IMG/VR virus record: IMGVR_UViG_3300020187_000150
Location: 1-29,437 of that record
Source of the DNA: a virus
Direction: 5' to 3' (one strand)
DNA: 29,437 nt
This document shows positions 9,072 to 29,321 of the stretch, piece after piece. Made by a program: the position numbers and the translations under genes. How positions within the stretch are numbered: position 1 is the stretch's first letter; each line of letters begins with the position of its first letter. Below the pieces are notes generated by a model. It made no database searches, was not told the origin of the DNA, and was given only the letters and a program-made list of their open reading frames with translations.

Positions 9072-9656
9072 ATGATGAAGGGTACGAACACGCAGGTCAA
9101 TCAAATCCTGCATAAGATACCAACCAATTCGATTGGAGCTGAAATCGGAATCTGGAAAGGCCAGACTAGTCGAAAATTTCTAGAAAAAAACCTATCACAT
9201 TTCCATATGGTTGATCCATACAGCATGGGTGTCAACTCAGGAAGAACATTAGATCAAAAACTGGACCGATATAAAGATATTGTCGGCAGCAAGAACCCCG
9301 AAGATTTCCAGGAATATTACGATCGGCTCTACCTAGAAATTGAAAAAGAATTTGGTTCCAAAAATAATGTCACTGTACACAGATCTTATTCAAAAGAATT
9401 CTTTGATTCCATCGAAGATAATTATCTAGACTGGATATATATTGACGGTGACCATACCTATGAAGGCTGTTTGTTTGACCTACAAATGTCACTCAAGAAA
9501 GTTAAGTCAGGAGGGAGCATCTTCGGAGACGACTACCGAAACCAAGGTGGTGGTGGTAAAGCAGGAGTAATAAAAGCTGTTCCTGAATTCGCCTCCAAAC
9601 AGAACCTCAAATTGATCCCATATGGTCTAACACAATTCGAATTCAAGGTGCCATAA
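9072..9656 (+). CDS. Class I SAM-dependent methyltransferase (TylF/Methyltransf_24-like), 194 aa
   Basis: Motif I is GAEIGIWKGQTS (residues 22-33), and the acidic residue after strand 2 is D48 (MVDPY). The DWIYIDGDHTYEG motif (~120-132) and a late SGGSIFGDDY strand are typical of sugar O-methyltransferases with a metal-binding DGxH...DD set. It is compact, without extra domains. It resembles the protein at 12381 over its whole length (GAEIG.W.G, YKDIVG, DWIY.DG.H.YEG, GG.IFGDDY), so the two are paralogues. It may methylate a sugar made by the adjacent glycan genes; the substrate is inferred. Tandem ATGs occur at 9072 and 9075 after AAAGG. Confidence 0.85.
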   Translation: MMKGTNTQVNQILHKIPTNSIGAEIGIWKGQTSRKFLEKNLSHFHMVDPYSMGVNSGRTLDQKLDRYKDIVGSKNPEDFQEYYDRLYLEIEKEFGSKNNVTVHRSYSKEFFDSIEDNYLDWIYIDGDHTYEGCLFDLQMSLKKVKSGGSIFGDDYRNQGGGGKAGVIKAVPEFASKQNLKLIPYGLTQFEFKVP

Positions 9657-9890
9657 ATGCCAACATATGATATGAAAAACACCAAGACTGGTGAAGTGAA
9701 AGAAATGTTCTTAAAAATAGCAGAGAAAGAAGAGTTGGTTGCAGCCGGAGAATGGGAGCAAGTGCATCTCGGATCCTACTCTATTATTACCCATACAGGC
9801 AGTATTATAAATAAAACTTCAGGAGACTGGAAAGATCTATTGAAAGCGGTCAAGAAAGGATCCGGCAGAAACAACACGATTAAAACATAG
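9657..9890 (+). CDS. FmdB-like small phage protein without zinc cysteines, 77 aa
   Basis: The start MPTYDMKNTKTGEVKE parallels the MPTYDY.C..CG..FE start of FmdB-type zinc-ribbon proteins, but the cysteines are replaced. The end, TSGDWKDLLKAVKKGSGRNNTI, is a pattern I recall from small T4-type marine phage proteins. The ATG directly follows the preceding TAA. A TATAAATA box lies inside it at 9806. A structural or regulatory role cannot be told apart. Confidence 0.78.
   Translation: MPTYDMKNTKTGEVKEMFLKIAEKEELVAAGEWEQVHLGSYSIITHTGSIINKTSGDWKDLLKAVKKGSGRNNTIKT
9806..9813 (+). promoter_or_regulatory. Possible late promoter box (TATAAATA)
   Basis: A perfect match to the T4-type late promoter TATAAATA, inside the 9657 gene and upstream of the lysozyme group, which would be expected to be late. 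One or two such 8-mers are expected by chance in this window. Confidence 0.35.
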
Positions 9891-9893
9891 ACG

Positions 9894-10076
9894 ATGGAAT
9901 TATCAAAGATGCATAATTTAACCCACATAGAAGAGGAAGTACTATCGCTTCTTCCTCCCTGCTTACCCCATGGGTTAAAGGTTGCTGTGTTGTCGAAGTT
10001 GGGGATACTACAAACTCCTAAACCCGCGCCTGTCGCATTAAAATCCAACGTAGTGTACTTGAGGAAACAACAATGA
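9894..10076 (+). CDS. Hypothetical protein, 60 aa
   Basis: The ATG is three bases after the previous stop. The stop overlaps the lysozyme start by four bases (ATGA). The protein is helical in its first half (NLTHIEEEVLSLLPPCLPHGLKVAVLSKLGI), with Pro-rich and short beta segments after. No motif is recognised. The tight coupling to lysozyme suggests co-expression in the lysis phase. Confidence 0.65.
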   Translation: MELSKMHNLTHIEEEVLSLLPPCLPHGLKVAVLSKLGILQTPKPAPVALKSNVVYLRKQQ

Positions 10077-10519
10077 ACCGAAACGAAGTATTTGAAACAC
10101 TAAAGATTGACGAGGGGGTAGAATATAAAATCTATCTTGATCACCTCGGTTACCCCACCTTTGGCGTAGGACATTTAATTACAGAAGCCGACCCTGAATC
10201 CGATCAACCGGAAGGCTCTGAAATCAGTGAAGAAAGAGTTTGGGAAGCGTTTGAACAAGACCTAGATACATCTATTGCTGAATGTCATCAATTATTTCCA
10301 GGTGGTCAATTCGACAACTTCCCTGAAGAAGTCCAGCAGATTATCGTTAATATGATATTTAACATGGGCAGACCACGTCTGTCTAAGTTCAAGAAAATGA
10401 TCGCAGCGATTGAAGCTGGTGATTGGAAAACTGCCGCTGTTGAGGGGCGCGACTCGAGATGGTATAATCAAGTATCAAACCGAGCGGAAAGATTAATGTC
10501 TAGATTGGAGAATGTATAA
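10073..10519 (+). CDS. T4-type lysozyme (GH24 endolysin), 148 aa
   Basis: Cleaves the beta-1,4 MurNAc-GlcNAc bond of peptidoglycan at lysis. The T4 catalytic triad is kept: E14 (IDEG), D23 (IYLDHLG) and T29 (YPTFGVGH), equivalent to T4 E11/D20/T26. Further matches are NMIFNMGRPRLSKF and SRWYNQVSNRAERL, the T4 NMVFQMG and SRWYNQTPNRAKR segments. The length is 148 versus 164 in T4. No signal peptide is present, so export needs a holin, which I cannot identify nearby; the micro membrane ORFs elsewhere are only candidates. It is followed by TAATG coupling to a small basic gene and then a lipase. Confidence 0.96.
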   Translation: MNRNEVFETLKIDEGVEYKIYLDHLGYPTFGVGHLITEADPESDQPEGSEISEERVWEAFEQDLDTSIAECHQLFPGGQFDNFPEEVQQIIVNMIFNMGRPRLSKFKKMIAAIEAGDWKTAAVEGRDSRWYNQVSNRAERLMSRLENV

Positions 10520-10653
10520 TGGCGCTACATGGCGGAAGTGACAAAGTTGAAAAGGCACCGAAGGGGACTTCTATTGGTAGAGGTCGTATGAAGATGTCAT
10601 CAATGAATAAATCTAAAAAACGCAATTTTAAAAAATATAGAGGCCAAGGGTAA
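10519..10653 (+). CDS. Small basic conserved phage protein, 44 aa
   Basis: The ATG overlaps the lysozyme stop (TAATG). The product is very basic: PKGTSIGRGRMKMSSMNKSKKRNFKKYRGQG. The pattern 'GTSIGRGR..MS.MNK.KRR..K.YRGQG' is one I recall from T4-type marine phages, adjacent to other conserved small genes. Nucleic-acid binding is plausible from charge alone. The function is unknown. Confidence 0.78.
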   Translation: MALHGGSDKVEKAPKGTSIGRGRMKMSSMNKSKKRNFKKYRGQG

Positions 10654-10655
10654 TC

Positions 10656-11387
10656 ATGAACATCAGCGAAATTCGATACTTTGCAAAGATATCTCAATTA
10701 ACATATAGTGATCCGAGCAAGTTGGTAACAGCTTCATTTAAGCAGCTTGGGTGCAAAATAGAGAAATTCTATGATAAGAAAGGCGCACAGGCGTATTTAC
10801 TTAAAGCAGCCGACCATTATGTCCTGTCCTTCAGAGGAACAGAAGTAACTGAACCGAGCGACATCAAAGCTGACTTGTACGCGGGAAAGAACAATGCACA
10901 AGCGGGTGGTAAGATTCATGTTGGGTTCAAGAAAGAGCTCAGTAAGATCTGGACTGAAATTCGAGATGATCTGGTAAAGATCAAGAAAACCCCAGTTTAT
11001 TTGACTGGCCACAGTCTTGGTGCTGGTATGGCAACAATCGCCGCTTCTAGGCTCGCGCCATCGAAGATCACAGCTCTTGTTACATTTGGGTCTCCTAAAG
11101 TGGGCACCCAAGAGTTTGTCGACGCTTGTACCTTTACTCACTACCGCGTTCAGAACAATCGAGATATTGTAACTCGAGTGCCTCCTCGCGCGATGGGTTT
11201 CATACATCAAGGCATAAACGTTTGGATGGACTATGATGGCATAATCACTACCAAATCAACTATGTCTTTGTTAATAGGATACGTAAAGGGGTTTATGGCT
11301 GGCAATAAATTTGTTGGTTTGTCTGACCATAAGATGGAAAATTATCTCGCGAAGCTGGATAAGCTTCCGAGCGAGTACGAAGTCTAA
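10656..11387 (+). CDS. Class 3 (alpha/beta-hydrolase) lipase-like protein, 243 aa
   Basis: The lipase_3 signature is complete: VLSFRGTE (oxyanion strand, ~56-63), the nucleophile elbow GHSLGAG with Ser120, the acid D170 in QNNRDIVTRVPP, and His225 in SDHKMENY. ALVTFGSPKVG (~140-150) is the typical strand after the nucleophile. No signal peptide is present, so it would act in the cytoplasm unless released at lysis or packaged. A phospholipase or lipase that damages host membranes or the outer envelope is plausible beside lysozyme. The substrate is unknown. The residues 190-220 form a hydrophobic lid-like stretch. Confidence 0.9.
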   Translation: MNISEIRYFAKISQLTYSDPSKLVTASFKQLGCKIEKFYDKKGAQAYLLKAADHYVLSFRGTEVTEPSDIKADLYAGKNNAQAGGKIHVGFKKELSKIWTEIRDDLVKIKKTPVYLTGHSLGAGMATIAASRLAPSKITALVTFGSPKVGTQEFVDACTFTHYRVQNNRDIVTRVPPRAMGFIHQGINVWMDYDGIITTKSTMSLLIGYVKGFMAGNKFVGLSDHKMENYLAKLDKLPSEYEV

Positions 11388-11406
11388 CAACAAGAGAGCA
11401 ACACCA

Positions 11407-11580
11407 GTGGCAAAGTATACACGTTTCGATCCAAGAAACAAAAAGAAAGACAAGAACAAGATTAGTAAGAATGGTGATCAAAGTCGAACGAGGTTCGTTA
11501 AAGATCTCGACGACTGGGGCGCTGATATAAAAAAGGTACCACCAGCAAGATTACAACAAATTATAGAGAGTAACGGATGA
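11407..11580 (+). CDS. Small basic hypothetical protein, 57 aa, GTG start
   Basis: I choose the GTG at 11407 (AAGAGAG upstream), because upstream sequence in this frame belongs to the lipase-coding strand. The protein AKYTRFDPRNKKKDKNK is strongly basic in its first half and acidic/hydrophobic after (FVKDLDDWGADIKKVPP). No domain is recognised. The TGA stop overlaps the next ATG (ATGA at 11577), so it is translationally coupled to the first glycosyltransferase. Confidence 0.68.
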   Translation: MAKYTRFDPRNKKKDKNKISKNGDQSRTRFVKDLDDWGADIKKVPPARLQQIIESNG

Positions 11581-12368
11581 AACGTCTCATATATCAAGTT
11601 TCTGTTGGAACACCTTCTCTTCTTTATCAATTTTGCATAGATTCTGCTAAGAGATATTGTGGGTTGCACGGGATCGATCATCACGTCCAAACATTTCCTA
11701 TGTTACGCATTAAGCCCGATGTTTTTGTTACAAACAGAAGCGAAGAATCTTACCAAAAATATGGTGGGTACTTGCCCATCTACGAAAAAGAAAACGCCTT
11801 TGCCCATTTTGACGAATACGATCAAATCGCCATTGTAGACGCAGACATATACATTAAAGGTTCTGCTCCAAATATCTTTGACGAGATGACTCCAGAATAT
11901 GATTTCGGCGCGGTTTGTGAGCGGGAGATGCCTCTTACCGTAGAATATGTCAATAAAATAAAGAATTACTCTCGTATGCAATACTCCTCTCTCAACGATG
12001 TTGACTGGAAATGGAACGAGCGTGGTGGCGAATTCTTCAACATGGGTTTAATGGTCATGAACAAAGAAGGATTTCAAAAATATTTGAGAGGGCAGTCGCC
12101 TAAAGAGTTCTTGAATCGATACGAGTTCAAACGATTCATTGACGGCGATGGTGCTTGGAAGTGGTCGACAGACCAAACATTACTCAATTGGTGGATAAAG
12201 AAAGAAGGAATGAGCATCAAGCATCTTCCTTGGAAATACAACGCTTTGTATAAGGGTGTTGTCGATGAAGTCATTACCGAAGCACATTTTGTGCATTTCT
12301 TTTTAAGAGACAAACTTCCCAACAAAGGGGAAGACATTCCTCAGCTTTGGGAAATAATAAACAAATAG
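11577..12368 (+). CDS. Glycosyltransferase, GT-A fold with DxD, 263 aa
   Basis: The nucleotide-sugar site is D88-A-D90 in IAIVDADIYIKG, preceded by a Rossmann-like first half. FFNMGLMVMNK (~153-163) and WSTDQTLLNWW are typical of GT8-like retaining transferases, and a C-terminal EAHFVHFF supplies the His often paired with the DxD metal. It is probably a cytoplasmic enzyme; donor and acceptor are unknown. It opens the glycan block and starts by overlap with the preceding small gene. The related DxD enzyme at 15743 has a similar core (CWLDTD). Confidence 0.85.
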   Translation: MKRLIYQVSVGTPSLLYQFCIDSAKRYCGLHGIDHHVQTFPMLRIKPDVFVTNRSEESYQKYGGYLPIYEKENAFAHFDEYDQIAIVDADIYIKGSAPNIFDEMTPEYDFGAVCEREMPLTVEYVNKIKNYSRMQYSSLNDVDWKWNERGGEFFNMGLMVMNKEGFQKYLRGQSPKEFLNRYEFKRFIDGDGAWKWSTDQTLLNWWIKKEGMSIKHLPWKYNALYKGVVDEVITEAHFVHFFLRDKLPNKGEDIPQLWEIINK

Positions 12369-18286: not shown

Positions 18287-18332
18287 CAACGGCTTACGGG
18301 CCGTTGTCTTATTTATGTTTTTAAGAGATAAT
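18287..18332 (+). promoter_or_regulatory. Stem-loop sigma70-type promoter cassette, copy 6 (GC stem)
   Basis: CAACGGC (18287-18293), loop TTACGG, GCCGTTG (18300-18306), a perfect 7-bp stem whose inner pairs differ from the other copies on both arms. The -35 box is TTGTCT (18304-18309), the spacer is 17 nt, and the -10 box is GATAAT (18327-18332). The standard leader AAATAAGGAAAAGGAAGTG follows. Confidence 0.88.
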
Positions 18333-18361
18333 ACTCTTGTAAATAAGGAAAAGGAAGTGAA

Positions 18362-18628
18362 ATGGCAGCAATAGAATACAGAAAGTTTGAAGCAGCTGAT
18401 CTTGGTGACATCTTAGGATGGAAATCTGCTGCGGGGTACCTCGAAGGTAAGATCACTCGGATCGACCGAATGAAGAACACTGCCTGTAAAAAGACTCTCA
18501 GCGATTGGGTCATGGTTGAAGTCCTTCCTTACTTCGCGCGGTTTGAAGGTGAGACTGCTTACCTGAATGCAAATTTCCTGCTTGATCAAGCCAAGCCTCG
18601 CATAATGAAAAAAGAAGAGGTCGCGTGA
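18362..18628 (+). CDS. Hypothetical accessory protein, 88 aa
   Basis: The ATG follows the conserved purine-rich leader of promoter copy 6. The protein starts AAIEYRKFEAADLGDILGW and has a charged, Lys/Arg-rich C-terminal half. No recognised domain, signal or membrane span. The stop TGA overlaps the next ATG (TGATG at 18626-18630). Confidence 0.68.
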   Translation: MAAIEYRKFEAADLGDILGWKSAAGYLEGKITRIDRMKNTACKKTLSDWVMVEVLPYFARFEGETAYLNANFLLDQAKPRIMKKEEVA

Positions 18629-18860: not shown

Positions 18861-18906
18861 CAACAACTTACCAGTTGTTGTCTCGTTAATGTTTTTAAGA
18901 GATAAT
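18861..18906 (+). promoter_or_regulatory. Stem-loop sigma70-type promoter cassette, copy 7
   Basis: CAACAAC (18861-18867), loop TTACCA, GTTGTTG (18874-18880), a perfect stem. The -35 box is TTGTCT (18878-18883), the spacer is 17 nt, identical to that of copy 8, and the -10 box is GATAAT (18901-18906). Confidence 0.9.
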
Positions 18907-18936
18907 ACTTTTGTAAATAAGGAAAGGAAGTGAAAT

Positions 18937-19101
18937 ATGGTCCCATGGTATGCAAAAGGCGAAGTCGGTGAATACTTGATTCACGCGCTTGATTTGATTC
19001 AAGACGGGCAGATCAACGATGCTATCAGTGCTTGTCTCAGTGTTGGTATGAGCGACGAAGAAATTGATGAGTTTTTATCTGACGAAGGAGTTACACAATG
19101 A
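18937..19101 (+). CDS. Hypothetical small acidic protein, 54 aa
   Basis: The ATG is preceded by AAGGAAAGGAAG from promoter copy 7. The product (VPWYAKGEVGEYLIHALDLIQDG...SDEEIDEFLSDE) is acidic and probably all-helical, resembling short helix-turn-helix-like dimerisation stretches, but without a firm motif. The stop overlaps the next ATG (ATGA at 19098). Confidence 0.65.
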   Translation: MVPWYAKGEVGEYLIHALDLIQDGQINDAISACLSVGMSDEEIDEFLSDEGVTQ

Positions 19102-19515: not shown

Positions 19516-19561
19516 CAACAACTTACCAGCTGTTGTCTCGTTAATGTTTTTAAGAGATAAT
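19516..19561 (+). promoter_or_regulatory. Stem-loop sigma70-type promoter cassette, copy 8
   Basis: CAACAAC (19516-19522), loop TTACCA, GCTGTTG (19529-19535), one mismatch. The -35 box is TTGTCT (19533-19538), the spacer is 17 nt, identical to that of copy 7, and the -10 box is GATAAT (19556-19561). The conserved leader leads to the ATG at 19591. Confidence 0.9.
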
Positions 19562-19590
19562 ACTCTTGTAAATAAGGAAAAGGAAGCGAA

Positions 19591-20106
19591 ATGTCTACTA
19601 GAGCAACTTACCAATTTGTTTCATCTCTTGGTGATACCGATGCAGCAACTAAAACCTTCTACCTTCATTATGATGGTTATCCCGAAGGCGCTGCGAAGTA
19701 TTTTTCCTCTGCGTTGAAATGTCAAGCAAACGACACCCCATGTGGTTACCAGTTGCAGGACGATTTTATTCTTAATCACAATCCGTCTGAAATTGAAGAT
19801 CACGAGGAACACGGTGATACTGAATTTCGTTATACTTTCAATCGTGACACCCTCAATATCCTAGTCGAGAAAAGAGCTGGTTCATTGCCTCGGGACTTTG
19901 ACAACTACTTTGACGGCGCTCTCATGGATTTCATTGAACAAGAGACTGACACTTACTACGAGTCAACAGACTATCGCGACCTGATGATGAGTATGGTAGA
20001 TGATGGTGTTCTCTCTGCCGAGGACGCGCTCCGAGCGTGCCTTGTATCAATGTCACAAGACGATGTCCGTGACACCATGATTCTCAATGAGCTAAAAGCT
20101 TTCTAA
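19591..20106 (+). CDS. Conserved phage protein of unknown function, 171 aa
   Basis: A strong SD (AAGGAAAAGGAAG) follows promoter copy 8. The sequence starts STRATYQFVSSL and has FYLHYDGYPEGAAKYF (~22-37), a pattern I recall from widespread phage and bacterial small proteins, possibly nucleotide-related, though no function is assigned. The middle is acidic (EIEDHEEHGDTE), and the C-terminus is helical (SAEDALRACLVSMSQDDVRD). No membrane part. Confidence 0.78.
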   Translation: MSTRATYQFVSSLGDTDAATKTFYLHYDGYPEGAAKYFSSALKCQANDTPCGYQLQDDFILNHNPSEIEDHEEHGDTEFRYTFNRDTLNILVEKRAGSLPRDFDNYFDGALMDFIEQETDTYYESTDYRDLMMSMVDDGVLSAEDALRACLVSMSQDDVRDTMILNELKAF

Positions 20107-20109
20107 TTC

Positions 20110-20155
20110 CAATGAGTTACCACTGGTTGTCGGGTTAGCTGATTTGAACGATAAT
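20110..20155 (+). promoter_or_regulatory. Stem-loop sigma70-type promoter cassette, copy 9
   Basis: CAATGAG (20110-20116), loop TTACCA, CTGGTTG (20123-20129), one mismatch and one G-T. The -35 box is TTGTCG (20127-20132), the spacer is 17 nt, and the -10 box is GATAAT (20150-20155). The leader (AAAGAAAAGGAAACGC) precedes the ATG at 20186. Confidence 0.86.
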
Positions 20156-20185
20156 ACTCTAGTAATTAAAGAAAAGGAAACGCAA

Positions 20186-20386
20186 ATGCGAATGATAGAA
20201 GAATGGGAAAAACACATGATGTACGAGGCGTTGGTGACAATGCAAGAGTACGGCGAAAGTAAGTTTGAATGTATTAATATGTTACGAGAAGAGTTTAAAC
20301 TCACTCGTAGTGAATCATACAGCGTCTTTCATAACTGGAAAGCAAGCTTTCGAGTCACATCATCAAGATATTCAATCTGCGCGTAA
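20186..20386 (+). CDS. Hypothetical small helical protein, 66 aa
   Basis: I start at 20186, after AAAGGAAACGC of promoter copy 9; an upstream TTG would sit inside the promoter. The protein is helical with a Glu/Met-rich first helix and a second half FKLTRSESYSVFHNWKASF that parallels the 19328 product (FGLSKKESIQVFQAWAEAF). A paralogous pair in the same accessory region supports duplication of single-gene cassettes. Confidence 0.68.
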   Translation: MRMIEEWEKHMMYEALVTMQEYGESKFECINMLREEFKLTRSESYSVFHNWKASFRVTSSRYSICA

Positions 20387-21060: not shown

Positions 21061-21106
21061 CAACAACTTACCAACGGTTGCCTGATTAGTGTATATGAGC
21101 GATAAT
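21061..21106 (+). promoter_or_regulatory. Stem-loop sigma70-type promoter cassette, copy 10
   Basis: CAACAAC (21061-21067), loop TTACCA, ACGGTTG (21074-21080), stem weakened to the outer 4 pairs plus isolated pairs. The -35 box is TTGCCT (21078-21083), the spacer is 17 nt, and the -10 box is GATAAT (21101-21106). The standard leader follows. Confidence 0.87.
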
Positions 21107-21136
21107 ACTCTTGTAAATAAGGAAAGGGAAGTGAAT

Positions 21137-21286
21137 ATGTACGGGAATGCAGTCGGTTCAATCTATAAGAAGCCAGAAGTTGTTGAAGAAGTGGTATTCT
21201 ACGAATCAGAATTAGAAACCTTCATTGGGTTTATCTTCTGTGTTGTGATCGGGTTTGGCACCATTTACCTCAGTCATTTTCTCTAA
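21137..21286 (+). CDS. Small membrane protein, 49 aa
   Basis: I take ATG 21137, just after the AAGGAAAGGGAAG leader. The N-terminal half is acidic (PEVVEEVVFYESELE), followed by one transmembrane segment, FIGFIFCVVIGFGTIYLSHF. A tail-anchored topology is predicted. No family recognised. Confidence 0.66.
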   Translation: MYGNAVGSIYKKPEVVEEVVFYESELETFIGFIFCVVIGFGTIYLSHFL

Positions 21287-22230: not shown

Positions 22231-22306
22231 TTGGGGCTGTAGCTCAGTTGGGAGAGCGGTTCCCTTGCACGGAACAGGTCGTAGGTTCGATCCCTATCAG
22301 CTCCAC
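22231..22306 (+). tRNA. tRNA-Ala (UGC)
   Basis: A complete cloverleaf: acceptor GGGGCTG pairs with CAGCTCC, anticodon stem GTTCC/GGAAC encloses loop CTTGCAC (anticodon TGC), and the T-loop is GTTCGATCC. The CCA end is encoded. It is the first of six tRNA genes in the cluster. Confidence 0.97.
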
Positions 22307-22325
22307 CACTTTATTAGGAACGGTA

Positions 22326-22454
22326 ATGAAAACTAAAGCAGTTGTGCGACATAACCCTGTAGCAAAACATGCACATAAGTTTAACAAAGCAGTAGTAATG
22401 CAGGACAAGAAGCGCGTGGCATCAAAACGAGCATGTAGAAAGAAAATATTATGA
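22326..22454 (+). CDS. Small basic conserved phage protein, 42 aa
   Basis: TTAGGAACGG lies upstream of ATG 22326. The product (KTKAVVRHNPVAKHAHKFNKA...) is strongly basic and His-rich, and the start resembles a small-protein family I recall from phages (possibly DUF7230; not verified). It probably binds nucleic acid or a protein by charge. Lies between tRNA-Ala and tRNA-Ser, and its stop overlaps the next micro ORF (ATGA). Confidence 0.7.
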   Translation: MKTKAVVRHNPVAKHAHKFNKAVVMQDKKRVASKRACRKKIL

Positions 22455-22558
22455 CATTCATATTACTATTTTGGATTGGCATCATTACGGCTTGCTGGAT
22501 CAGCGTAAAAATTCAAGATAGAGAAGATCGTCTCATAAACGAGAAAAATAAAAAATAG
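22451..22558 (+). CDS. Micro membrane protein, 35 aa
   Basis: ATGA overlap at 22451. The product has one hydrophobic segment TFILLFWIGIITACWIS and a charged tail (KIQDREDRLINEKNKK). The final G of its stop codon (22556-22558) is also the first base of the tRNA-Ser gene. Its reality is supported by the coupling and by several other micro membrane ORFs in the window. Confidence 0.5.
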   Translation: MTFILLFWIGIITACWISVKIQDREDRLINEKNKK

Positions 22559-22648
22559 GAAGATTGGCAGAGTGGTTGAATGCACTGGTCTTGAAAACCA
22601 GCATACCTTAATAGGGTATCGAAGGTTCGAATCCTTCATCTTCCGCCA
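22558..22648 (+). tRNA. tRNA-Ser (UGA)
   Basis: Acceptor GGAAGAT pairs with ATCTTCC, the anticodon stem ACTGG/CCAGC-type encloses loop CTTGAAA (anticodon TGA), a long variable arm (ATACCTT...AGGGTAT) is present, and the T-arm is GAAGGTTCGAATCCTTC. The CCA end is encoded. The 91-nt length is normal for serine tRNAs with a long variable arm. Confidence 0.96.
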
Positions 22649-22878: not shown

Positions 22879-22962
22879 GGAGGGGTGGGTGAGTGGTTAA
22901 AACCGTCGGACTGTAAATCCGATCCGCGAGGTACGCTGGTTCGAATCCAGCCCCCTCCACCA
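22879..22962 (+). tRNA. tRNA-Tyr (GUA)
   Basis: Acceptor GGAGGGG pairs with CCCCTCC, anticodon stem TCGGA/TCCGA encloses CTGTAAA (anticodon GTA), and a variable arm and T-loop GGTTCGAATCC are present. The CCA end is encoded. The length is 84 nt. Confidence 0.96.
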
Positions 22963-22977
22963 ATTTTAGATTTTGTT

Positions 22978-23054
22978 GCAGCGGTAGTTCAGCTGGTTAG
23001 AATGCTGGCCTGTCACGCCAGAGGTCGCGAGTTCGAGTCTCGTCCGTTGCGCCA
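22978..23054 (+). tRNA. tRNA-Asp (GUC)
   Basis: Acceptor GCAGCGG pairs with CCGTTGC, anticodon stem CTGGC/GCCAG encloses CTGTCAC (anticodon GTC), and the T-loop is AGTTCGAGTCT. The CCA end is encoded. Confidence 0.97.
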
Positions 23055-23072
23055 GTTATATATAAAGATATT

Positions 23073-23148
23073 GCCGCTATAGCTCAGTTGGTAGAGCAAC
23101 TGATTTGTAATCAGTAGGTCCCGAGTTCGACTCTTGGTGGCGGCACCA
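23073..23148 (+). tRNA. tRNA-Thr (UGU)
   Basis: Acceptor GCCGCTA pairs with TGGCGGC (one G-T), anticodon stem ACTGA/TCAGT encloses TTTGTAA (anticodon TGT), and the T-loop is AGTTCGACTCT. The CCA end is encoded. A TATAAAGA box lies 14 bases upstream and may be chance. Confidence 0.97.
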
Positions 23149-23169
23149 ATTTATTATTGAGGAAGTATC

Positions 23170-23355
23170 ATGGCAAGGAAAGATAACGATATCGTCTACC
23201 TGATTCCAGAAGGACAAACTCGTGAGTCTCACGATTATCATTACACTGTTTCTAAAAACAAAAAGAAAGATAAGATGCGTCTGAAGAAATACAACCCAAA
23301 GACACAGAAGCATGAATGGTTCGTAGAGATTAAGAAACCAAGCCATTCCAAGTAA
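23170..23355 (+). CDS. bL33 ribosomal-protein-like protein, 61 aa
   Basis: The C-terminal two thirds align by eye with bacterial bL33: YHYTVSKNKKK corresponds to the bL33 FYTTTKNKR block, KMRLKKYNP to KLELKKFDP, and KHEWFVEIKK to the H..YKEAK end. It has no CxxC zinc pair, as in E. coli RpmG. It is slightly longer than host bL33 (about 50-55) because of the N-terminal insert EGQTRESHD. bL33 sits near the ribosomal E site. A phage copy could enter host ribosomes during infection. It lies inside the tRNA cluster, between tRNA-Thr and tRNA-Asn, next to other translation genes. ATTGAGGAAG is the SD. Confidence 0.8.
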   Translation: MARKDNDIVYLIPEGQTRESHDYHYTVSKNKKKDKMRLKKYNPKTQKHEWFVEIKKPSHSK

Positions 23356-23369
23356 GAGCAAAGTTAATC

Positions 23370-23543
23370 ATGGAATACAAAGAACTAGTAGAAATCGAAA
23401 CTCCTGAAGAAATGGTCGAAGAGCTACAAAGAGTATTTCCTAACTTACCCAACGTCTTACAATACCCGTCTACTGTCCTTTGGTATATTAAGCTGTACCG
23501 ATTCTATAAGAAGAGAAAGGAAACATACGGCGATTTCACTTAA
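23370..23543 (+). CDS. Hypothetical protein, 57 aa
   Basis: ATG at 23370 after AGAGCAAAG. The product has an acidic N-terminal half (LVEIETPEEMVEELQRVF) and a basic aromatic end (YIKLYRFYKKRKETYG). The frame fills the whole gap between the bL33-like gene and tRNA-Asn. No domain is recognised. Confidence 0.6.
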   Translation: MEYKELVEIETPEEMVEELQRVFPNLPNVLQYPSTVLWYIKLYRFYKKRKETYGDFT

Positions 23544-23545
23544 AT

Positions 23546-23621
23546 TCCCTGTTAGCTCAGTTGGTAGAGCGTGTGACTGTTAATCACAATGTCCTTGGTT
23601 CGAGCCCAAGACAGGGAGCCA
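23546..23621 (+). tRNA. tRNA-Asn (GUU)
   Basis: Acceptor TCCCTGT pairs with ACAGGGA, anticodon stem TGTGA/TCACA encloses CTGTTAA (anticodon GTT), and the T-loop is GGTTCGAGCC. The CCA end is encoded. Starts two bases after the previous stop. Last of the cluster. Confidence 0.97.
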
Positions 23622-24926: not shown

Positions 24927-25159
24927 ATGGTAAAAAAGCAAAGCAGCTGAGAAGAAGTTGTCGTGGAAACGAAACTGTTACCAAAGAGCTCAAAAGAATG
25001 TACAACTCTTTGAATCACGTTGAGAAGGAAATTCTCAACTATCTAACTGATGGTGGTGTTAAGCCTGTGTCTTTCATGAAAGAAGAAGATATAGTAGAAT
25101 CAGTATCATTTCCAGCTAAATTTATAGATACGGGTGAGAAACCAGAAGAAAATCAATAG
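24923..25159 (+). CDS. Hypothetical basic protein, 78 aa
   Basis: ATGA overlap at 24923. The N-terminal half is basic (NGKKAKQLRRSCRGNETVTKELKRMYNSL), with a helix that could bind nucleic acid; the C-terminal half is acidic. The TAG stop lies inside the left arm of promoter copy 11 (25154-25160). Confidence 0.66.
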   Translation: MNGKKAKQLRRSCRGNETVTKELKRMYNSLNHVEKEILNYLTDGGVKPVSFMKEEDIVESVSFPAKFIDTGEKPEENQ

Positions 25160-25199
25160 GTTATAAGAGATTGTTCTGTTAGTGTTTATGAGAGATAAT
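25154..25199 (+). promoter_or_regulatory. Stem-loop sigma70-type promoter cassette, copy 11 (stem degraded)
   Basis: CAATAGG (25154-25160), loop TTATAA, GAGATTG (25167-25173): only the outer four pairs (CAAT/ATTG) remain. The -35 box is TTGTTC (25171-25176), the spacer is 17 nt, and the -10 box is GATAAT (25194-25199). The leader is not the standard one. Confidence 0.8.
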
Positions 25200-25231
25200 A
25201 CTCTAGTAATTTCGATCGAAGGAACACTAAC

Positions 25232-25786
25232 ATGAACATCTTTTATCTACACACAGATCCAGTGATTTGCGCAATGCAACACTGTGACACGCATTCCTCT
25301 AAGATGTGTGTTGAATACGCACAACTGCTCAGTACAGCGCATAGAGTTATCGATGGCGAAATGGTCATTGGCAGGTCTAAGAGCGGCAGCAGAATCAAAC
25401 GATATGTCTTCCAAGACACAACCAAAGACTCTCTGATTTACAAAGCCTCACACGCCAACCACCCCTCTAATATCTGGGTGAGGCAATCTGTTGAGAACTA
25501 TAATTGGCTCTACCAATTGTGGATTGCTTTGGGTGCCGAGTACACTTATCGTTATGGTAGAGAACACGAATCTCTAAGAAAGCTCTCCGAGGTGCTTGAA
25601 ACACCTCCACAAAACCTCAAAGAAAATGGATTCACCCAGCCTACACCTGCAATGAAAGCATACCCCCATTGTATTATACCGAACGACTCTGTATCGTCTT
25701 ATCGTAATTTTTACCGAGAAGACAAGAAAGAATTCGCCAAATGGTCTAAAAGAGAAGTACCAGAATGGTGGAGTGTCGCAGCTTAA
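25232..25786 (+). CDS. Uncharacterised conserved phage protein, tandem paralogue A, 184 aa
   Basis: SD GAAGGAAC lies upstream. The sequence begins MNIFYLHTDPVICAMQHCDTHSSKM and continues VEYAQLLSTAHRVIDG, SHANHPSNIWVRQSVENYNWLYQLW, and a C-terminal FYREDKKEFAKWSKREVPEWW. I recall this layout (FYL..DP..CA..HCD.H..KM..E.AQLLSTAHR) in many tailed phages, with no function known to me. The clustered His, Cys and Asp residues near the N-terminus (H17, C18, D19, H21) suggest a metal or nucleophile site. The downstream gene is a paralogue. Confidence 0.85.
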   Translation: MNIFYLHTDPVICAMQHCDTHSSKMCVEYAQLLSTAHRVIDGEMVIGRSKSGSRIKRYVFQDTTKDSLIYKASHANHPSNIWVRQSVENYNWLYQLWIALGAEYTYRYGREHESLRKLSEVLETPPQNLKENGFTQPTPAMKAYPHCIIPNDSVSSYRNFYREDKKEFAKWSKREVPEWWSVAA

Positions 25787-28809: not shown

Positions 28810-28844
28810 AGTGCTTAGAAAAGAAAAGCTAAAGGGTGAAAACA

Positions 28845-29321
28845 ATGAAACTAACAGATAAAGAAATCCTAGACTTTGTAAAAGAAAACATAACAATAGC
28901 TAAAGGCATGACTGGCCATATCGAAATAAAAGGAGTGCACTGCTCCATTCGTGGCGATGTTGATGGCGATGTTAATGGAGATGTTGGCGGCAATGTTGGT
29001 GGTAATGTTTGTGGCAATGTTGATGGAGATGTTGGTGGCGATGTTGTTGGAGATGTCCATGGTAATGTTAATGGAGATGTTGATGGCAATGTTCGTGGCG
29101 ATGTTGATGGCGATGTTAATGGAGATGTTGATGGAGATGTTGGTGGCGATGTTGTTGGAGATGTCCATGGTAATGTTAATGGAGATGTTCGTGGCGATGT
29201 TGGCGGCAATGTTGGTGGTAATGTTTGTGGCAATGTTGATGGAGATGTTGGTGGCGATGTTAATGGAGATGTTGGCGGCAATGTTGGTGGTAATGTTTGT
29301 GGCAATGTTGATGGCTCTTGA
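28845..29321 (+). CDS. GDVx tetrapeptide-repeat protein, 158 aa
   Basis: I take ATG 28845, after AAGGGTGAAAACA. Residues 1-36 form a short helical/beta head (KLTDKEILDFVKENITIAKG...). Residues 37-156 are exactly 30 tetrapeptides G-[D/N]-V-x (x = D, N, G, C, V, H or R), ending GS. Higher-order copies are visible: the run GNVGGNVCGNVDGDVGGDV occurs twice and the last copy ends after GNVD; GGDVVGDVHGNVNGDV occurs twice. Such repeats suggest a beta-solenoid, reminiscent of bactofilin-like or viral fibre proteins, and D-rich faces could bind divalent cations. The reverse-strand and third forward-frame ORFs over the repeat are products of the 12-bp period. Confidence 0.82.
   Translation: MKLTDKEILDFVKENITIAKGMTGHIEIKGVHCSIRGDVDGDVNGDVGGNVGGNVCGNVDGDVGGDVVGDVHGNVNGDVDGNVRGDVDGDVNGDVDGDVGGDVVGDVHGNVNGDVRGDVGGNVGGNVCGNVDGDVGGDVNGDVGGNVGGNVCGNVDGS
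28953..29312 (+). repeat. Tandem 12-bp coding minisatellite, 30 units
   Basis: Thirty units of the form GGNRATGTTNNT, encoding GDVx/GNVx, with larger blocks of up to about 60 bp repeated. Such arrays can change unit number by slippage or recombination, so length may vary among related phages. Confidence 0.93.

Follow-up and report, generated by a model that had tools for sequence, protein, structure and literature searches.

A bL33 gene within a tRNA cluster

The window, meaning the whole stretch of 29,437 nucleotides analysed here, contains a 61-aa open reading frame inside a tRNA cluster, as the sequence-only reading had placed it. Six tRNAs were found by both ARAGORN and Rfam, five of them upstream of this frame and tRNA-Asn downstream. 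The features around the gene are as follows.

22233-22308, + strand: tRNA-Ala (tgc), by ARAGORN and Rfam
22558-22648, + strand: tRNA-Ser (tga), by ARAGORN and Rfam
22879-22962, + strand: tRNA-Tyr (gta), by ARAGORN and Rfam
22978-23054, + strand: tRNA-Asp (gtc), by ARAGORN and Rfam
23073-23148, + strand: tRNA-Thr (tgt), ending 21 nt 5' of the bL33 start codon, by ARAGORN and Rfam
23159-23165, + strand: Shine-Dalgarno-like GAGGAAG of the bL33 gene, 4 nt upstream of it, read from the sequence
23170-23355, + strand: bL33 (rpmG-like) gene, 61 aa, ATG start, by PF00471, TIGR01023 and fold
23209-23241, + strand: codons for the beta1-beta2 loop (residues 14-24, EGQTRESHDYH), the so-called insert, common to SAR86 chromosomal bL33, by alignment and model strands
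23260-23277, + strand: codons for the beta2-beta3 loop (residues 31-36), counterpart of the human bL33m loop that touches the tRNA acceptor arm (PMC7438116); its length varies across the family, by alignment and model
23370-23543, + strand: 57-aa ORF immediately 3' of bL33, without a confident family
23546-23621, + strand: tRNA-Asn (gtt), 190 nt 3' of the bL33 gene, by ARAGORN and Rfam

Between tRNA-Ala and tRNA-Ser, a 42-aa basic protein (22326-22451) matches a family of unknown function (Pfam DUF7230 at 38.1 bits with a cut-off of 27; phrog_1359).

Judged by sequence profiles and a predicted structure, the 61-aa ORF is a real, intact bL33 homologue with a bL33 fold. The three ordered blocks on which its identification had been based are real, and the proposed search against Pfam Ribosomal_L33 (PF00471) gave 37.5 bits (E 3e-9), above the curated cut-off of 25 and far above chance. 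TIGR01023 gave 31.2 bits (cut-off 23.95), while scores with the narrower subfamily models PRK00595 and PRK00504 were under their cut-offs. Matches to Pfam VTC (19.9 bits, cut-off 23) and DUF5859 were below cut-off and were rejected. No usable family for the protein was found in PHROGs. Its closest sequence matches among solved structures were bL33 chains of ribosomes in every case.

An AlphaFold2 model was built from 40 sequences (window, phage, SAR86 and SAR11) with a mean pLDDT of 78.8, and has four strands at residues 6-13, 25-30, 37-42 and 47-54. When the model was compared with the PDB by Foldseek and VIA-align 2, all 50 entries listed by the aligner were ribosome structures, bacterial or organellar, with bL33-sized chains in nearly all listed rows. 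The best rows had Z of 7.0, by itself a middling value, and superposition on an E. coli ribosome chain, another proposed check, gave an rmsd of 1.5 A over 50 of 52 residues. The sequence profile agrees with this structural match. As deduced from the aligned ranges, the beta1-beta2 loop is about 4 residues longer than in E. coli bL33 and the beta2-beta3 loop about 2 shorter.

The placing of bL33 near the ribosomal E site agrees with published structures, where it touches tRNA near that site. In human bL33m, Arg36 in the ss2-ss3 loop touches the leaving tRNA at its acceptor arm (PMC7438116). We infer that the Arg36 position would be K31 of the phage protein (query 22-56 on chain 27-61 of 3j7y).

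Viral relatives and selection

In IMG/VR, 24 loci carry bL33 relatives with 72-100% identity to the window protein, and across diverse T4-like contigs with differing gene contexts the identity is at least 74% over the full length. Among 12 distinct full-length versions, 39 of 61 positions are invariant. A second viral set comprises 30 loci with 53-81% identity to SAR86 bL33. The nearest relative of the window is L002/L026, whose DNA is ~90-94% identical over long shared stretches. Between the window and L002, the bL33 genes differ by 6 synonymous and 0 non-synonymous substitutions. For the two phage groups and the bacterial ones alike, pN/pS is far under 1, with many pairs saturated at synonymous sites. 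Because of these low ratios and the lack of amino-acid changes relative to L002, the gene is judged to be kept for its protein.

The tRNA arrangement is not kept in the same way. Just 1 of the 24 relatives, the near-identical L002/L026, has tRNAs directly beside bL33. Four more (L004, L009, L010 and L013) carry one or two tRNAs at a distance of 2.5-3.4 kb, and in the remaining 19 the fetched flank contains no tRNA. The neighbours vary as well, including peroxiredoxin, ribonucleotide reductase, primase, ThyX and small ORFs (names partly read from sequence). Since both tRNAs and neighbours differ among relatives, the arrangement is local rather than a conserved unit. A conserved translation-takeover module of tRNAs and bL33 is thus not supported, the adjacency being confined to the window and L002/L026 among related loci.

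Two other contexts were noted. In L187 (8161-9972, also in L183), a predicted 603-aa TonB-dependent outer-membrane receptor-like protein lies directly 5' of bL33 on a T4-like contig. In L196 and L197, around 9491-11953, bL33 is flanked by small heat-shock-like and SufB-like proteins (names read from sequence).

Searches of ~50,700 phage records gave no match to the window protein or to SAR11-type bL33, and SAR86-like phage bL33 gave weak matches only (E > 0.5). Canonical bL33 matches in these records were set aside, as they look like host contamination or whole bacterial contigs. A pattern search of IMG/VR from one SAR11 protein yielded no SAR11-like viral bL33, a search that diverged ones could escape.

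Phage nature and host

The window contains genes for a SegE-type endonuclease, a phage exonuclease family protein, a phage ThyX and SNase families. Ribonucleotide reductase, SegE-type endonuclease, SNase, ThyX and others are common to the window and the contigs of the first viral group. The T4 gp23 capsid gene is present on four long contigs with the closest bL33 relatives; no gp23-type major capsid gene was seen on the 29-kb window fragment itself. One contig of the second group has terminase, single-strand binding, UvsX-like and helicase genes. A T4-like marine phage is the best reading of the bL33 carrier.

Host naming by tRNA similarity was rejected. The window tRNA-Thr and tRNA-Asp are 90-91% identical to those of SAR86 genomes with the phage-type bL33 (below), but the window tRNAs reach up to 96% identity in several other gammaproteobacteria. 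Because these match better, the tRNA match is not specific to SAR86. The bL33 tree points to SAR86, and in it the second viral group falls with SAR86. The host of the window phage is likely gammaproteobacterial, with SAR86 as one candidate. GC content is 42% in the window and 34-38% in the second viral group except in the divergent L198.

The same bL33 type in SAR11 and SAR86

The bL33 type of the window was searched for in ~85,000 species genomes. The matches were in SAR86 (55-60% identity) and in SAR11/Pelagibacterales or alphaproteobacterial records (45-56%), with one SAR86-like copy in a MAG labelled Rickettsiales. No bacterial genome among these species had the window's own subtype at >60% identity. 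Among these genomes, the bacterial carriers of the type were confined to SAR11 with its nearest relatives and to a portion of SAR86.

SAR86 bL33 of this type reads VYLIPEGETRDSHTYHYTV...KHEWFVEAKLPPHSK and shares both its N-terminal segment and its tail with the phage protein. The N-terminal insert had been described as not seen in host bL33, but the VYLIPEGETRDSHTYHYTV segment is also found in the chromosomal bL33 of many SAR86 and so is not peculiar to phages. SAR86 chromosomal bL33 (e.g. CP097968.1, L056) resembles the window protein over the full length, at 57-60% identity, and likewise has the PPHSK tail. Unlike in the window, its beta2-beta3 loop is longer and its gene lies beside glycine-cleavage-type genes and a membrane protein gene.

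Just two of 398 Pseudomonadota genomes gave strong full-length matches: the SAR86 centre genome, at 92 bits, and a genome at 53 bits that reappears in the Pelagibacterales order; the remainder scored at most 29 bits, nearly all over the core alone. The SAR11 form was found in 71 of 78 Pelagibacterales genomes. One of these (G1025) has two full-length SAR11-type copies (C21:9478-9666 and C13:81326-81514), either a real duplication or a binning artefact. Four alphaproteobacterial sequences (L202-L205) are intermediate (KYDP...KHVWFVEKKMPPHSK) with a PPHSK-like tail, which suggests an alphaproteobacterial origin of the unusual tail.

Probable replacement of native rpmG in part of SAR86

In the SAR86 order, 37 of 101 genomes have the phage-type bL33 (107-125 bits). 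A PF00471 search found canonical bL33 in 51 of the 101 (58-65 bits), whereas the same 37 genomes had the phage type only and lacked native rpmG. None of the 101 had both full genes (types counted by hand from listed rows). Of 14 SAR86 and SAR11 genomes tested, 12, including a complete SAR86 chromosome, have one bL33 gene only, of the phage/SAR11 type; in the other 2 the second bL33 matches are weak and partial.

In canonical SAR86, rpmG lies directly 3' of rpmB (overlapping it in L296). In two phage-type SAR86 genomes read in detail, rpmG is missing there and a maf-like gene directly follows rpmB. Their phage-type bL33 gene is elsewhere, ~436 kb off in the complete genome.

bL28 served as a control. 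The two SAR86 types are 70% identical on average in bL28 and 41% identical to SAR11, so that bL28 is, by these sequences, inherited normally. In bL33, the two SAR86 types are just 35% identical, and the phage type is 52% identical to SAR11 and 62-69% to phages. Because bL28 keeps the two SAR86 types together and bL33 does not, genome mislabelling does not explain the pattern. We infer that the phage-type bL33 took the place of native rpmG in part of SAR86.

Tree and direction of transfer

A bL33 tree was made from 105 sequences over 65 columns, and its few columns and long branches call for caution. A branch with 100/95 support separates canonical bL33, including that of canonical SAR86, from SAR11, the four alphaproteobacteria, both phage groups and phage-type SAR86. 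Another (97/80) puts both phage groups and phage-type SAR86 on one side. A constraint joining the two SAR86 bL33 types was rejected (p-AU 6.5e-55); constraints to one clade of phage-type SAR86 (p 0.164) or to one clade of phages (p 0.205) were not.

Taken together, the tree and the rejected SAR86 grouping make a transfer of bL33 into SAR86 well supported. Its route could have been direct from a SAR11-like bacterium or via phages, with either direction possible between phage and SAR86. That T4-like phages brought a SAR11-lineage bL33 across classes, displacing native rpmG in much of the SAR86 order, is a tentative proposal that we consider less likely than not. If true, the ribosomes of an abundant marine group would run with a phage-borne bL33 type.

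Discussion

We consider it probable that the gene encodes a functional SAR11/SAR86-type bL33 of a T4-like marine phage, which substitutes for host bL33 in ribosomes, and that phages and bacterial chromosomes have exchanged this gene, with native rpmG replaced by it in part of SAR86. Within this reading, homology, the predicted fold, purifying selection and the status of only clear bL33 type in its bacterial carriers come from the results above. The phage protein most likely takes the place of host bL33 in the 50S subunits of infected cells. During infection, it would be made together with the phage tRNAs, compete with the host's loosely held bL33 and enter the 50S subunit beside the E site, possibly keeping ribosomes active while host gene expression is shut down. 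Alternatively, it might slightly alter E-site tRNA release in concert with the phage tRNAs.

The ribosomal proteins that are loosely bound and can be exchanged include bL33, and E. coli ribosomes take up viral bS21 and bL12 (PMC6375957). Incorporation need not mean support of the ribosome, since viral bS21 had a strongly impairing effect on E. coli ribosomes in vitro. E. coli reportedly tolerates bL33 loss (Maguire and Wild 1997, cited in PMC6375957), so a strong effect on translation is not assured either.

The protein might instead be derived from bL33 but bind RNA away from the ribosome, acting for instance on phage tRNAs or as a regulator. Its coding among tRNA genes in the window phage and loop lengths (beta1-beta2 and beta2-beta3) that depart from canonical bL33 would fit such a role. 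However, the tRNA neighbourhood is not conserved, and SAR86 and SAR11 genomes that carry the same unusual form have it as their sole clear bL33, which makes the loop differences compatible with ribosomal work; we regard the off-ribosome role as unlikely. Even less probable, and already disfavoured, is chance pick-up of a host gene without lasting function. Hosts' ribosomal protein genes can be sampled at random, a view found in PMC6375957, and the position of the gene differs among phages; yet full-length identity of at least 74% persists across diverse T4-like contigs in different contexts, and none of the 6 substitutions between the window and L002 changes an amino acid.

The closely similar genes on SAR86 chromosomes could also mean that the window is bacterial chromosome wrongly called viral and the gene a host rpmG. 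We give this hardly any credence: the surrounding genes are of phage type (SegE-type endonuclease, phage exonuclease family, phage ThyX and SNase), genes are common to the window and related viral contigs, T4 gp23 capsid genes being present on some of the latter, and the window's subtype occurs in none of the ~85,000 species at >60% identity. No bacterial genome with the whole window in place was seen.

A viral bL33 is less novel than the sequence-only reading had implied. Mizuno et al. 2019 reported bL33 in >10 aquatic viral contigs (PMC6375957), and that of phage PhiMa05 was described in 2026 (PMC13157829). As here, the bL33 of Mizuno et al. is aquatic and viral, usually the sole ribosomal protein gene, and under purifying selection; their main text does not mention the SAR11/SAR86 bL33 type, the SAR86 replacement or T4-like groups, and their contigs may overlap with ours (PMC6375957). 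In the Microcystis jumbo phage PhiMa05 and in Vampirovibrio prophages, bL33 likewise lies near a tRNA gene (PMC13157829), and the authors propose that viral ribosomal protein genes became sole copies in some bacteria. Unlike here, the hosts in the PhiMa05 system are cyanobacteria and the jumbo phage carries six ribosomal proteins; the bacterial copies stay inside the related Vampirovibrio prophages, and bL33 is the gene that decayed in one prophage, whose host kept its own copy (PMC13157829). Phage bS21 is also a ribosomal protein homologue with proposed late-stage ribosome substitution (PMC9723584; PMC6375957), but it belongs to the small subunit, acts in translation initiation and has a conserved structural-gene neighbourhood, whereas phage bL33 has no fixed one.

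A literature search of partial coverage, over main texts, found no account of the SAR11/SAR86 bL33 type or of the replacement in SAR86. Viral ribosomal proteins are known; what appears to be new is a swap of bL33 across bacterial classes, for which viruses are possible carriers. Such proteins are usually discussed as infection tools. In this case the gene type also serves as the sole clear bL33 in two marine bacterial groups that are very abundant and belong to different classes, and in one of them the native gene was replaced. Because SAR11 and SAR86 share this type and the native gene was replaced, phage movement of core translation genes between bacteria becomes directly testable with genomes.

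Repeats elsewhere in the window

An intergenic repeat of ~79 nt occurs in eight + strand copies (897-975, 1235-1313, 18287-18365, 18861-18939, 19516-19594, 20110-20188, 21061-21139 and 25154-25232). In each copy a hairpin, CAACAACTTACCAGTTGTTG, precedes a conserved GATAATACTCTTGTAAATAAGGAA stretch that lies just 5' of start codons, and the whole looks like a cassette of terminator, promoter and ribosome-binding site. Near the end of the window (28836-29321), an ORF is made of 12-nt repeats in ~25 registers, and its product is GDV/GNV-rich.
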